A DNA stretch of 64,000 bases, from NCBI GenBank assembly GCA_029975215.1, contig JARKPO010000061.1, positions 99,999 through 163,998 of the forward strand, given 5' to 3'. This document shows, piece after piece, positions 51,830-55,142 of the stretch (position 1 is the stretch's first letter; the number at the start of each line of letters is the position of its first letter). The position numbers and the translations under genes are program-made. Under the pieces are notes generated by a model, which was not told the origin of the DNA, searched no databases, and worked only from the letters and a program-made list of their open reading frames with translations. The stretch comes from Levilinea sp. Lineage in GTDB: Bacteria > Chloroflexota > Anaerolineae > Anaerolineales > Anaerolineaceae.

Positions 51830-51859
51830 TTGACACGGTTTGGGGCGGCGTGCTAAACT
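51830..51859 (+). promoter_or_regulatory. Promoter of the leader and acetyltransferase cluster
   Basis: Perfect TTGACA (51830-51835), 18-base spacer, TAAACT (51854-51859). A start near 51866 would give a ~385-base leader before the first protein gene. Confidence 0.75.
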
Positions 51860-51898
51860 GGACTTGATGTAAATTCTAAGAAAGGAGAAGCGCAAGAG

Positions 51899-52000
51899 AT
51901 GGTTTTCAACATTCTTCCTACATTCATGATTTGCTCTGCGGCCGTCGTTTCTGGCGGTGGTGTTGTTGTGCCTTCTCGGAGTGCGCCAACTCCCGGTTAG
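51899..52000 (+). CDS. Leader peptide 1 (33 residues)
   Basis: ATG 51899 follows AAAGGAG (51881-51887) at 11 bases. The peptide begins MVFNILPTFMICSAAVV, is Val-, Gly- and Ala-rich with a VVV run, and stops at TAG 51998-52000, 19 bases before the first terminator. No stable protein function is expected. The position, strong ribosome site and terminators behind it mark a regulatory leader ORF. The frame after the TAG stays open through both terminators to TGA 52121-52123. It resembles valine-rich attenuator peptides of ilv operons only loosely. Confidence 0.6.
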   Translation: MVFNILPTFMICSAAVVSGGGVVVPSRSAPTPG

Positions 52001-52019
52001 AAGAACCAGTCGTCTCTTC

Positions 52020-52056
52020 AAAGCCACGGGCGTGCTCCAAGCCCCGTGGCTTTTTT
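52020..52056 (+). terminator. Leader terminator T1
   Basis: Arms AAAGCCACGGG (52020-52030) and its complement ending in GTGGCTTT, T6 after. 11-bp stem, 10-base loop. Its 3' arm can instead pair with the 5' arm of T2 (CCCGTGGC with GCCGCGGG, one G-U), giving an antiterminator. Confidence 0.85.
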
Positions 52057-52071
52057 GTTTGATGAAAACTC

Positions 52072-52098
52072 AGGCCGCGGGAATCCCGTGGCCTTTTT
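52072..52098 (+). terminator. Leader terminator T2
   Basis: AGGCCGCGGG pairs with CCCGTGGCCT across a tiny loop, followed by T5. The 3' half repeats T1 almost exactly (CCCGTGGCYTTTTTGTTT in both), which suggests local duplication. Confidence 0.85.
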
Positions 52099-52119
52099 GT
52101 TTCAGCACGGAGGACAGAA

Positions 52120-52158
52120 ATGACATTCAAAACAGGATTGAGCAAGGCTTTTTGTTGA
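52120..52158 (+). CDS. Leader peptide 2 (12 residues) downstream of T2
   Basis: ATG 52120 has GGAGG six bases upstream and encodes MTFKTGLSKAFC before TGA. A TTG (52155) overlaps this stop and opens a further 19-codon frame ending at 52214, so a chain of coupled short ORFs leads to the main gene. Whether they are translated is unknown. The hairpin GCGAAC/GTTCGC at about 52180-52199 lies in the last of them. Confidence 0.4.
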   Translation: MTFKTGLSKAFC

Positions 52159-52252
52159 GTTTTGGATCTGCGGTGGCTGCGAACTTCGGGCCGTTCGCGA
52201 GGCCAATTGGTTAGGACAAAGGAACACAAGGAACACGATGAAGGAGCACCAT

Positions 52253-52747
52253 ATGTTTGAGACGTTGACCCGACATGGAGGATACCGCATCGATTACCTG
52301 AAGCCGGAAATTGCCGGCCACCCCGAAGCGTTTGGCTTCTATGTGTGCGGCAGCCTCCCCGAAGATGCGGTGTACAGCACCAGCGCGCGTAGACAACTTT
52401 TGGCCGGGTTGAGTGCCATTCAGAACCAAATGAACCCGGATCACCTGGTGGCGATTTATGTGGACATTAACAACCTGGAGAATTTATTCCGCGGCGCATA
52501 CCAGCAGTTGAAACGAGACGTGCGCGAGGGATTGATTCACCGCGTGTTTGTGATCTCACTGGGCGATTTGATAGACGGCCCAGAAAGTATTGAAGATATG
52601 ACCGGATTGTTCCGCGATTCAGGCGGTTTTGAGATTATTAGCCTGGAGGATGGAATATGCCAGCGTGAGACTTTTGCATACGCCTGTTACCGATGGGTGA
52701 TGCGCAATGCAGCGGAGATCTATGAAGCACCTTGCATTGAACACTAA
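52253..52747 (+). CDS. Unknown protein with degenerate serine-resolvase-like fold
   Basis: 164 residues from ATG 52253 (AAGGAG six bases upstream); ATG 52238 would add five. I do not recognise a named family. Residues ~60-135 (IYVDINNLENLFRGAYQQLK, RDVREGLIHRVFVISLGDLI, GFEIISLEDG) follow the order of a serine-recombinase catalytic domain (DVKxGxIDxVVVxxLDRLSR...GVxxxSL). The LDRLSR motif is replaced by LGDLIDG, no catalytic Ser is evident, and no DNA-binding domain follows. It is thus probably a regulator or sensor rather than a recombinase. Its 3' end overlaps the next leader ORF by 26 bases. Confidence 0.55.
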   Translation: MFETLTRHGGYRIDYLKPEIAGHPEAFGFYVCGSLPEDAVYSTSARRQLLAGLSAIQNQMNPDHLVAIYVDINNLENLFRGAYQQLKRDVREGLIHRVFVISLGDLIDGPESIEDMTGLFRDSGGFEIISLEDGICQRETFAYACYRWVMRNAAEIYEAPCIEH

Positions 52748-52859
52748 ACCCTTGCAGGAACTGCATCCGGTTCAGGTCCACTGCACCTGCCGTCTGAGCG
52801 GCGTGGGGTCAAAGCCCACCCCGTCTCACTTCGGCAGCATGCTCGATAACGGCTCTTGA
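52722..52859 (+). CDS. Leader peptide 3 (45 residues) ending inside a terminator hairpin
   Basis: ATG 52722 follows GGAG (4 bases) within the end of the upstream gene. The peptide (MKHLALNTKPLQELHPVQ... ending SHFGSMLDNGS) contains HCTC. The stop TGA (52857-52859) lies in the ascending arm of the terminator at 52848-52912. A ribosome stopping here would block the hairpin. The upstream part can also fold as a separate GCAGG/CCTGC hairpin. Protein function is not expected. Confidence 0.5.
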   Translation: MKHLALNTKPLQELHPVQVHCTCRLSGVGSKPTPSHFGSMLDNGS

Positions 52860-52912
52860 GGTTGAAAACGCGCCCGCGCGGCTTTTCAGCCCAAGGGCCG
52901 TTTTTCTTGTTT
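52848..52912 (+). terminator. Terminator/attenuator before the first GNAT gene
   Basis: Long composite stem: AACGGCTCTTG (52848-52858) with CAAGGGCCGTT (52892-52902), continued inside by GGTTGAAAA/TTTTCAGCC and CGCG/CGCG; then TTTTTCTTGTTTC. About 24 bp in all. It lies 34 bases before the GNAT start. Confidence 0.85.
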
Positions 52913-52945
52913 CGGCAGCTAGATAGAAAAGGAGGAGACGCAGAC

Positions 52946-53524
52946 ATGATCGAAACGCCCTTATTTGAAGGCAAACGAGTGATAATTTGCGAGATTGACC
53001 CGGAAAGAACGGCCGCCGAGGAAGCGCGATGGACATATGACCTGGATGTGGCCAGTTATTACCGCCCCAATGCCTCGCGTCCTCTGGCGGCTTTTGAAAT
53101 TCAGAAATTCTATGAGGGGCACAAAAAAGACCTCGAAAGCATGCAGGTGCTTTATTTTCTGCTGCGCCACAAAGCCGACGACCAACTGATCGGCTTTTTC
53201 CGCGTGCGCGGCATTCAGATTGCACACCGCACGGCCTGGTTTGATCTGGTGATTGCTGAATCCGAAGGGCAGGCCGAGGCCGAAGAAGAGGCACTGCGCC
53301 TGGCGCTGCGCTACCTGTTTCTGGAATTGAATCTGGAGTACGTGACCATGCGCCTTTCGGAAACCCGCTTTGGGATGGAAGAACGCCTGAAAGCAGCGGG
53401 TTTCGGCCTGGATGTGCGTCAGCGCGGCATGGTATACCGCCGCGGACGCACCTGGGATCTGCTGCATTACGGTTTGCGGCGGCGCAGTTGGCTGCAGAAA
53501 CAGGGGTTGGAGGTGGAAGAATGA
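52946..53524 (+). CDS. GNAT-like acetyltransferase 1 of the leader-controlled cluster
   Basis: 192 residues; ATG 52946 chosen because AAAGGAGGAG precedes it. The pattern LLRHKADDQLIGFFRVRGIQ, AWFDLVIAESEGQAEAEEEALRLALRYLFLELNLEYVTMRLSETRFGMEERLKAAGF resembles RimJ/RimL-type GNATs, but the acetyl-CoA loop (usually RGxGxA/G) is replaced by an acidic stretch (SEGQAEAEEE), so acetyl-CoA binding is doubtful. It overlaps the next gene by 4 bases. Substrate unknown. Confidence 0.7.
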   Translation: MIETPLFEGKRVIICEIDPERTAAEEARWTYDLDVASYYRPNASRPLAAFEIQKFYEGHKKDLESMQVLYFLLRHKADDQLIGFFRVRGIQIAHRTAWFDLVIAESEGQAEAEEEALRLALRYLFLELNLEYVTMRLSETRFGMEERLKAAGFGLDVRQRGMVYRRGRTWDLLHYGLRRRSWLQKQGLEVEE

Positions 53525-54093
53525 ACAGCATGGGTAGCATTTTTGAAGGTAAGCTGGTGCGTCTGGCGATTCCTGATTTCGAGCGCGACAACGAGATCAT
53601 GGTGGGTTGGAGCCGCGACAGTGAGTATATGCGCCTGAGCGGCAGCGAACCCGCGCGCATGTGGTGGCCAGCGGTGGAGAAGAACTGGCTGAAGGAGTAT
53701 ATGGAAGAGGCCTATCTCTTCGGCATTTACCGCCGCGAAGATGACCGCCTGATTGGTACCCTGGATCTGGAGGTGGACAATTGGGCAGTGCGCAACGCCT
53801 GGCTGGGCATTGGTATCGGCGACCGCAGCTGTTGGGGCAAGGGTTACGGCAGCGAGGCTATGCGGCTGCTGCTGCACTTTGGGTTTGAGGAACTGCATCT
53901 GGATCGAGTCACCTTGAATGTTTTTGAGTACAACACCCGCGGGGTGCATGTATATGAGAAGCTGGGTTTCAAGGCGGAAGGACGCTATCCCAAGTGGCTG
54001 CTGCGCGAAGGCAAACGCTGGGATTTGATCTACATGGGGATCACGCGCAGCGAGTGGGAACAGGTGTGCGCGGAGAGCGGCAGCAGTTTTTAA
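53521..54093 (+). CDS. GNAT acetyltransferase 2 (RimJ/RimL type)
   Basis: 190 residues, ATG 53521 overlapping the previous stop; ATG 53530 is possible. Clear Acetyltransf_3-type GNAT: LVRLAIPDFERDNEIMVGW, GIYRREDDRLIGTLDLEVDN, LGIGIGDRSCWGKGYGSEAM (acetyl-CoA loop GKGYGSEA), LDRVTLNVFEYNTRGVHVYEKLGFKAEG. Such enzymes acetylate protein N-termini, aminoglycosides or small amines. The RimJ/L-like context with a ribosome-sensing leader makes an antibiotic or ribosomal-protein target plausible but unproven. Confidence 0.85.
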   Translation: MNSMGSIFEGKLVRLAIPDFERDNEIMVGWSRDSEYMRLSGSEPARMWWPAVEKNWLKEYMEEAYLFGIYRREDDRLIGTLDLEVDNWAVRNAWLGIGIGDRSCWGKGYGSEAMRLLLHFGFEELHLDRVTLNVFEYNTRGVHVYEKLGFKAEGRYPKWLLREGKRWDLIYMGITRSEWEQVCAESGSSF

Positions 54094-54107
54094 ATGGAGA
54101 GGGAAAA

Positions 54108-55142
54108 ATGGCAGCTATTCATCCCATCGCAGAAAAATTCCCCCTGGTGATGCCGGAGGGGATGCACGACCGTCCCTTTACCCTGGCAGATGCGCCAGCG
54201 GTGGTGGAGATCTATAACCGCGTTTCGCAAAAAATGACCGGTCATGACGATACATCGTTAGAAGAGGCCCTGGCCGATTGGAGCGACCCGGTGTATGTGC
54301 CGGAGCGAGATGGGCGCGTGATGGTGAACGAGGCAGGCAAGGTGGTGGGTTTTATTGAGTTTTATGATATGGGCCAGCCACACGTCCGATTTTACAGCTT
54401 TGGGCGGGTGGACCCCGACTTTGCCGGTCGGGGAGTGGGACGGTTCCTGCTCAGTTGGGTGCTGCACCGCAGTTTGGATAATCTGGAACTGGCTGATCCA
54501 GGTATGCGCGTGTCCCTAATGGGCGGGGTGAACGAGGCGGATCAGGCCGGCCGGCGCTTGTTTCAGAACCTGGGCTTTCGCCTGGAACGCGTGTTCAGCC
54601 GTATGCGCATTGATTTTGACCAGCCCCCACAGGCTCCCGTAATTCCAGAAGGGATCACCCTGCGTGCTACCCGTCCAGAGGATAACCGGCAGGTGTACCT
54701 GGCGGTGTACGACGCGTTCATGGATCATTACGGCTTTGTGCCGCAGCCCTTTGAAGACTACTACGCGCGTATGATGCACTTTTTAGAAAGCGACCCGTAT
54801 AAAGATTACGCTCTGCGCTTTGTGGCCGAAGAGGGGGGCGAGATCGTCGGTTTTTCGCTGTGCGATCCGCGCACGGGCGAAGACCCCAACCTGGGCTGGG
54901 TGGGGCAGTTGGGGGTGCGACGAGCATGGCGGCGTAAGGGCCTGGGGCTGGCGCTGCTGCTGCATTCTTTTAAAGAGATGTACGCGCGGGGGCTTCGTTC
55001 GGCAGGGCTGTGGGTGGATTCGGACAGCCTGACGGGGGCCACGCGTTTGTACGAGAAAGCGGGCATGCGCGTGCAGACGCGCTCAGTGCGTTTTGAATAT
55101 GAGCTGCGCGCGGGCAAAGAGGTGGGGGTGATGAGCCTGTAA
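54108..55142 (+). CDS. Two-domain GNAT acetyltransferase
   Basis: 344 residues, ATG 54108 after AGAGGGAAAA. N-terminal GNAT with acetyl-CoA loop FAGRGVGRFLLSWVL and C-terminal GNAT with LGVRRAWRRKGLGLALLLHS followed by SAGLWVDSDSLTGATRLYEKAGMRV. Both loops look intact (RGVGR, RKGLGLA), so both halves could be active; mycothiol-synthase-like and Eis-like enzymes share this layout. Last gene before a terminator, so the three GNAT genes are probably one transcription unit. Confidence 0.85.
   Translation: MAAIHPIAEKFPLVMPEGMHDRPFTLADAPAVVEIYNRVSQKMTGHDDTSLEEALADWSDPVYVPERDGRVMVNEAGKVVGFIEFYDMGQPHVRFYSFGRVDPDFAGRGVGRFLLSWVLHRSLDNLELADPGMRVSLMGGVNEADQAGRRLFQNLGFRLERVFSRMRIDFDQPPQAPVIPEGITLRATRPEDNRQVYLAVYDAFMDHYGFVPQPFEDYYARMMHFLESDPYKDYALRFVAEEGGEIVGFSLCDPRTGEDPNLGWVGQLGVRRAWRRKGLGLALLLHSFKEMYARGLRSAGLWVDSDSLTGATRLYEKAGMRVQTRSVRFEYELRAGKEVGVMSL

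Follow-up and report, generated by a model that had tools for sequence, protein, structure and literature searches.

A predicted ribosome-controlled transcription attenuator with two chained terminators in Chloroflexota

Introduction

In the trp leader of Escherichia coli, the choice among overlapping pairings (1:2, 2:3 and 3:4) is set by the position of a ribosome on control codons for the amino acid of the operon, and a single terminator is involved. Related arrangements are described in Bacillus subtilis. The accessible text on the vmlR leader describes an upstream ORF, an anti-antiterminator, an antiterminator and an intrinsic terminator ahead of an ABC-F gene, and when a ribosome stalls on this ORF the anti-antiterminator does not form (PMC9226507). 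The bmrBCD leader, in the part of its description that is accessible, likewise carries a leader peptide ORF, a terminator, an antiterminator and a predicted anti-antiterminator upstream of ABC transporter genes, and these genes are induced by lincomycin, erythromycin or chloramphenicol (PMC4191407). Elements of the same kinds are predicted in the leader analyzed here, which lies in a 64,000-nt stretch of a Levilinea sp. contig (JARKPO010000061.1), referred to below as the window.

Results

Layout of the leader in the window

The leader, the first gene and the three GNAT genes of the window are on the + strand. The leader stands behind a promoter (TTGACA-18-TAAACT, 10 of 12 matches, with TG before the -10 element; 51830..51859), from which a transcription start near 51866 is predicted, and 115 of 117 relatives have a promoter-like site of at least 9/12 in the 110 nt that precede the leader, compared to 20 expected in shuffled sequences. 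A Shine-Dalgarno sequence, GAAAGGAG (51880..51887), is followed by a leader ORF of 33 codons from ATG 51899 to TAG 52000 (51899..52000), which would encode MVFNILPTFMICSAAVVSGGGVVVPSRSAPTPG. Segment A (51884..51899), the Shine-Dalgarno and spacer region, is complementary to segment B, and from duplex energy and family-wide complementarity it is predicted to be the arm of an anti-antiterminator. Segment B, GGAGTGCGCC (51978..51987), occupies the last leader codons, and covariation and energies give it A or C as partner. Segment C, GGCGTGCTCC (52029..52038), is formed by the end of the 5' arm and the loop of terminator T1 and makes 10 bp with B that covary, which marks it as the other part of a predicted antiterminator. 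Terminator T1 itself (C:D; 52020..52053; -20.9 kcal/mol; T run to 52057) has as its 3' arm segment D, CCCGTGGCTT (52043..52052), whose partner can be C or E, and segment E, AGGCCGCGGG (52072..52081), assigned from the D:E energy and family statistics, is the 5' arm of terminator T2 (E:F; 52072..52094; -19.7 kcal/mol; T run to 52098).

Because B can pair with C or A, and D with C or E, the possible pairings of the leader form a chain in which each helix excludes its neighbors: A:B, B:C, C:D (T1), D:E and E:F (T2). All five range from -15 to -21 kcal/mol in the window; B:C has 10 bp at -20.4 kcal/mol, D:E has 10 bp, two of them G-U, at -19.8 kcal/mol, and A:B reaches -15.1 kcal/mol split over three short helices. 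There are 5 terminator-like sites in 1.3 kb, against 1.6 ± 1.2 in shuffles.

The initial annotation had listed the promoter, the 33-codon ORF with its ribosome site, T1, a near-identical T2 and a 12-codon ORF; all are present, and the likeness of the two terminators is confirmed for their stems in the window. It had further paired the 3' arm of T1 with the 5' arm of T2 over 8 bp with one G-U, and this pairing exists with the 10 bp and two G-U pairs given above. The trp-type overlapping logic that it proposed holds insofar as the pairings do overlap and D:E would disable T2; however, D:E alone is not the switch, and the predicted ribosome-sensitive part, B:C and A:B, had been missed. The 12-codon ORF (52120..52158), placed between T2 and the first gene and counted as part of the leader, does exist but is not a feature of the family: in a scan of 126 loci the same sequence occurs only in the window and a congener (L001 and L002), ten other loci carry different short ORFs of other sequence at this place, and the ORF was rejected as a family part, its sequence being confined to the genus of the window.

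Distribution of the leader

A covariance model of B and T1, built from ten sequences, was applied first to the family to which the window belongs, where 97 of 147 genomes matched (E ≤ 0.1), and to a sample of its order, where 269 of 400 did (E ≤ 0.001), the latter in 94 of 130 genera and with up to 5 matches per genome. In a phylum-wide draw, 24 of 301 genomes were matched, 23 of them in the same order and 1 in the same class outside that order. An initial BLAST had found relatives in 14 of 61 genomes; two of its loci (L006 and L013) were judged by eye to be unrelated matches and were excluded. The recurrence of the leader in the family and the order indicates that the architecture in the window is more than chance, and the search of relatives bears out the conservation that the initial annotation had made its touchstone, with the leader ORF and T1 conserved and T2 present in many loci.

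A pattern search of genome contigs returned at least 120 stretches, 80 of which were given to the covariance model. Among these, 63 were confirmed, and by record titles all confirmed matches listed are from Chloroflexota, counting Candidatus Aquidulcis, which we take to be placed in that phylum, with the exception of one locus (L213, DYKI01000201.1; 48.1 bits). This last is in a metagenome-assembled genome titled Chthonomonas calidirosea that has the leader, through transfer or mis-binning. None of the 17 model-negative pattern matches among those listed is titled Chloroflexota, and they were read as chance.

For the counts that follow, 120 regions were fetched, a non-random set made up mostly of the best-scoring matches, with some high scorers (e.g., G005 and G263) outside the counts. 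The loci searched with the model gave 129 matches, of which the 126 of at least 85 nt were kept and three shorter ones were dropped; two loci misaligned at B (L007 and L016) are outside the model but inside the 126. Alignment A3 holds 86 matches from 85 loci, and alignment A4 holds 43 matches from 41 loci. At three loci (L059, L138 and L161) the first model match is closely followed by another, partial one, which is probably T2 hitting the T1 part of the model.

No Rfam 15 family matched at gathering score in the window or in 12 loci of relatives; six sub-threshold matches (E 0.07-0.7) look like generic terminator or chance matches and were set aside. A description of the leader was not found in the literature searched, which was largely that available without subscription, and Chloroflexi are not named in the accessible text of an attenuator survey (PMC2965389). 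We regard the leader as a probable new RNA switch family. Named strains that carry it include Levilinea saccharolytica KIBI-1, Ornatilinea apprima P3M-1 and Thermanaerothrix daxensis GNS-1, so it is directly testable.

Genes downstream of the leader

The first gene of the window (52253..52747; an alternative start at 52238, giving 169 aa, is also open) encodes a protein of about 164 aa without assigned function, for which neither Pfam nor NCBIfam gives a match at E ≤ 0.001. Its family has 17 invariant columns in 11 sequences, the first-gene protein of L. saccharolytica KIBI-1 is identical to that of the window over 164 residues, and the predicted structure has a mean pLDDT of 57.3, too low for a fold search. 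Three GNAT acetyltransferase genes follow (52946..55142), then a HAD hydrolase gene, another ORF and finally one of 1307 aa, which we take, by eye, for rpoB. The initial annotation had described the downstream genes as acetyltransferases, which is correct for the three GNATs; the first gene encodes the other protein, however, and the wider family adds ABC-F proteins, ABC exporters and MFS proteins.

The first genes of the 126 loci were classed by clustering and scans of representatives, which assigned 114 of them: 31 to the ~164-aa family, 29 to GNATs, 24 to single ABC ATPases, 14 to ABC-F-like proteins (i.e., those with two Walker A motifs), 8 to ABC half-exporters, 3 to MFS proteins and 5 to others. 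Both ABC-F proteins that were scanned, one from a first gene and one from a second gene, pass the NCBIfam cutoff for a ribosomal-protection-like protein (470.6 and 415.3 against 380). Scans also covered an MFS protein, an RsgA-like GTPase, a half-exporter and a DrrA-like ATPase, the last scoring below its cutoff. None of the 114 assigned first genes was recognized as one for amino-acid biosynthesis.

The stretch between gene 1 and the acetyltransferase genes (52748-52915) is strongly structured (fold z -4.98) and has a terminator-like hairpin at its end; by BLAST, it is found only at the locus of the window and that of its congener among the loci compared, where it is 91.5% identical. It could be a second regulatory element, and because of the hairpin after gene 1 in these two genomes, read-through from the leader may not fully reach the acetyltransferase genes.

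Pairing across relatives

Both alignments were fitted to T1 and not to B:C, and the shuffle tests on them ignore relatedness. In A3, 85.5% of the B:C cells are paired, compared to 81.2 ± 0.4% after shuffling and 36-50% in slid controls, and 40 cells carry double changes against 13.4 ± 3.0 in shuffles (0 of 500 reaching that number), relatedness being ignored. A4 is less variable than A3; here, 90.3% of cells are paired (89.2 ± 0.3% shuffled, 32-62% in slid controls), and double changes number 7 against 1.9 ± 1.2, relatedness again ignored. The double changes occur in 11 labelled genera, with pairs such as GGATTGC with GCAATCC, and GGAGTTTGCC with GGCAAACTCC, and at one locus (L161) A, B and C are altered together. 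The T1 stem columns are conserved in both alignments, and the stem itself hardly varies. By these comparisons B:C is a covarying pairing that overlaps both the leader ORF and a terminator arm, and it is a putative antiterminator in cells.

The complementarity of B to the region around the ribosome-binding site, tested like D:E below with shuffles that ignore relatedness, is highest in the windows that begin 19, 14 and 9 nt ahead of the start codon, where the mean A:B helix scores are 11.8, 15.6 and 13.7, compared to 9.2, 10.2 and 10.0 with shuffled letters and 8.6-11.3 in the other windows. In the same three windows the B of the locus itself scores above the B of other loci (z 6.2, 6.2 and 3.4), with 15.6 against 14.5 at -14; this excess is also seen in two low-scoring windows just upstream of the peak. 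For D:E, the score is 22.1 within a locus, 19.8 ± 0.2 with the partner from other loci and 11.7 with shuffled letters, measured on the 88 of 126 loci that have a terminator-like hairpin of set score after T1, some of which are not T2-like. Such a hairpin was undetected in the other 38, which is partly the doing of the detector, as some T2 hairpins visible by eye were missed.

Folding models and the state of the ribosome-free leader

In a model of the RNA transcribed as far as C but not yet D, the number of leaders (of 117) in which B:C formed was 112 for a ribosome at the start, 100 for one at codon 11, 99 for no ribosome and 0 for one at the stop. Shuffling B changed these numbers to 39, 34, 37 and 1. 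In the folding model A:B is weak, reaching an occupancy of at least 0.4 in 20 of 117 ribosome-free RNAs compared to 13 with B shuffled.

Once T1 is complete, the mean equilibrium probability of T1 is 0.986 in free RNA, 0.80 with a ribosome at the start, 0.985 with one at codon 11 and 0.996 with one at the stop, and T1 drops by more than 0.2 from stop to start at 30 of 116 loci against 5 in the B-shuffled control. In the window it stays at 0.99. Since T1 wins so widely at equilibrium, the switch would have to be kinetic; at equilibrium, a stall deeper in the ORF is not expected to cause antitermination, and only a ribosome in the start region shifts T1.

The formation of B:C in most ribosome-free leaders before D exists, together with the weakness of A:B there, would fit a sensor of initiation, in which the ribosome-free leader is the antiterminated state, the response is to failed initiation and not to stalled elongation, and A:B merely brakes re-initiation. 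We consider this reading unlikely: the complementarity of A to B peaks at the ribosome-binding region and exceeds pairing with the B of other loci, free RNA with T1 complete folds almost entirely into T1, and a Gly-rich stretch one ribosome footprint upstream of B (see below) suggests that elongating ribosomes matter. The preferred reading is a sensor of translation arrest.

The leader ORF and the position of the ribosome

When the Shine-Dalgarno match is required to be 4 or more, a leader ORF is present at 117 of the 126 loci, compared to 26.5 expected in shuffles; a strict definition (ATG, match of 6 or more, and a stop that falls 9-32 nt beyond the first base of B) retains 82 of 126 compared to 0.6. 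B is read in three frames, by 97, 16 and 4 of the 117 leaders, and the peptides end in PSRSAPVxR in the major frame and mostly in SECAC in the second. ABC-F genes often follow the second-frame leaders: 7 of these 16 (L075, L087, L097, L111, L120, L125 and L146) precede one, compared to 1 of the 97 major-frame leaders.

The distance from the start of B to the stop codon is 20, 17 or 13 nt in 106 of 117 leaders, and across relatives T1 mostly follows the stop by 17-31 nt. On the vmlR upstream ORF, the accessible text reports a toeprint of 30S subunits 16 nt beyond the A of the start codon (PMC9226507). By this measure, a ribosome that holds the stop codon in the A site would have its edge about 13 nt past the first base of the stop, covering B and leaving T1 free. 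The initial annotation had left the exact effect of the ribosome undecided; with the stop at these distances, a terminating ribosome would mask B. Upstream of B, the Gly-rich stretch has Gly in 41, 53 and 64 of the 97 major-frame leaders at codons -8, -7 and -6, counted from the conserved R codon, and a ribosome with codon -6 in the P site would have its edge about 3 nt before B, which should be the furthest point at which a stall leaves B unmasked.

The conserved end of the peptide could also suggest a sensor in which the C-terminus, P-S-R-S-A-P, stalls its own ribosome when a ligand is present, and in the major frame R, A and P indeed hardly vary (93, 86 and 93 of 97). This is very improbable, however, as the same nucleotides are read in the second or third frame by the other leaders, the nucleotides of B covary with C, and a ribosome stalled at the C-terminus would cover B and favor termination. 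The arrest peptide was set aside because, with B read in three frames, the amino acids at the stall site are not conserved across the leaders.

Just as little credit is given to an amino-acid attenuator, for example one for glycine, in which the Gly codons at positions -8 to -6 would be the control codons: their frequency, and the placement of a ribosome on them just short of B, speak for it, but the stretch is not invariant and the assigned first genes include no recognized biosynthesis gene. A trp- or his-type attenuator was rejected, as no control codons were found that match an amino acid made by the operon, only the Gly-rich stretch. It is hardly credible, finally, that these are plain, unregulated tandem terminators after a small gene, their arms alike through duplication; the near-identical T1 and T2 stems of the window, and the fact that duplication alone permits D:E, agree with this, but duplication of T1 does not explain B:C or A:B, nor does it account for the covariation of B:C and the fixed position of the stop.

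Discussion

From the arrangement and covariation of its segments, the leader is probably a ribosome-controlled transcription attenuator that senses translation arrest, with a tandem-terminator 'domino' in addition. A ribosome that finishes the leader ORF would cover B, and T1 and T2 would form; with a ribosome held near the start, B would stay available for pairing with C, the 5' arm of T1. Formation of B:C would release D, D:E would then pair, and both terminators would likely be disabled at once, with A:B acting as the putative anti-antiterminator. The position of the ribosome is thus envisaged as driving the choice of helix, and translation inhibitors as the signal. The suggestion of the initial annotation that the locus responds to ribosome stress is in this respect sound, with the signal presumed.

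We give about even chances to a broader proposal, that six-segment 'domino' attenuators are found order-wide, that in each of them one position of the ribosome on an ORF of about 30 codons, read out at the Gly stretch one footprint before B, flips two chained terminators together, and that together they run a dispersed translation-stress regulon (ABC-F proteins, exporters, GNATs, MFS proteins and RsgA-like GTPases) without a protein regulator. If this is true, a widespread family of RNA regulators exists that has no gathering-level match in Rfam 15, and the leader sequence marks the whole translation-stress regulon of the order, including proteins of unknown function and acetyltransferases. 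The chain of tandem terminators would itself be a new design, combining tight shut-off with a single trigger.

Compared to the E. coli trp leader, the leader in the window would follow the same ribosome-position logic, but with a longer chain and with no biosynthetic genes recognized downstream. The vmlR leader, as far as the accessible text describes it, differs in having a 3-codon ORF inside its first hairpin, one terminator hairpin and a hairpin that sequesters the Shine-Dalgarno sequence (PMC9226507), whereas the leader family analyzed here has an ORF of about 30 codons with B at its end, the ribosome-binding region as the opposing arm, and two chained terminators. In bmrBCD the terminator lies inside the leader ORF, and a second terminator or a helix equivalent to D:E is not described in the accessible part of that report (PMC4191407). 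The family also differs from both B. subtilis leaders in its range, being found in Chloroflexota, across dozens of genera and upstream of many gene classes. The logic of anti-antiterminator, antiterminator and terminator nevertheless appears to be shared with vmlR and bmrBCD, and the classes of gene downstream would fit the kind controlled there, putatively for ribosome protection, efflux or drug modification.
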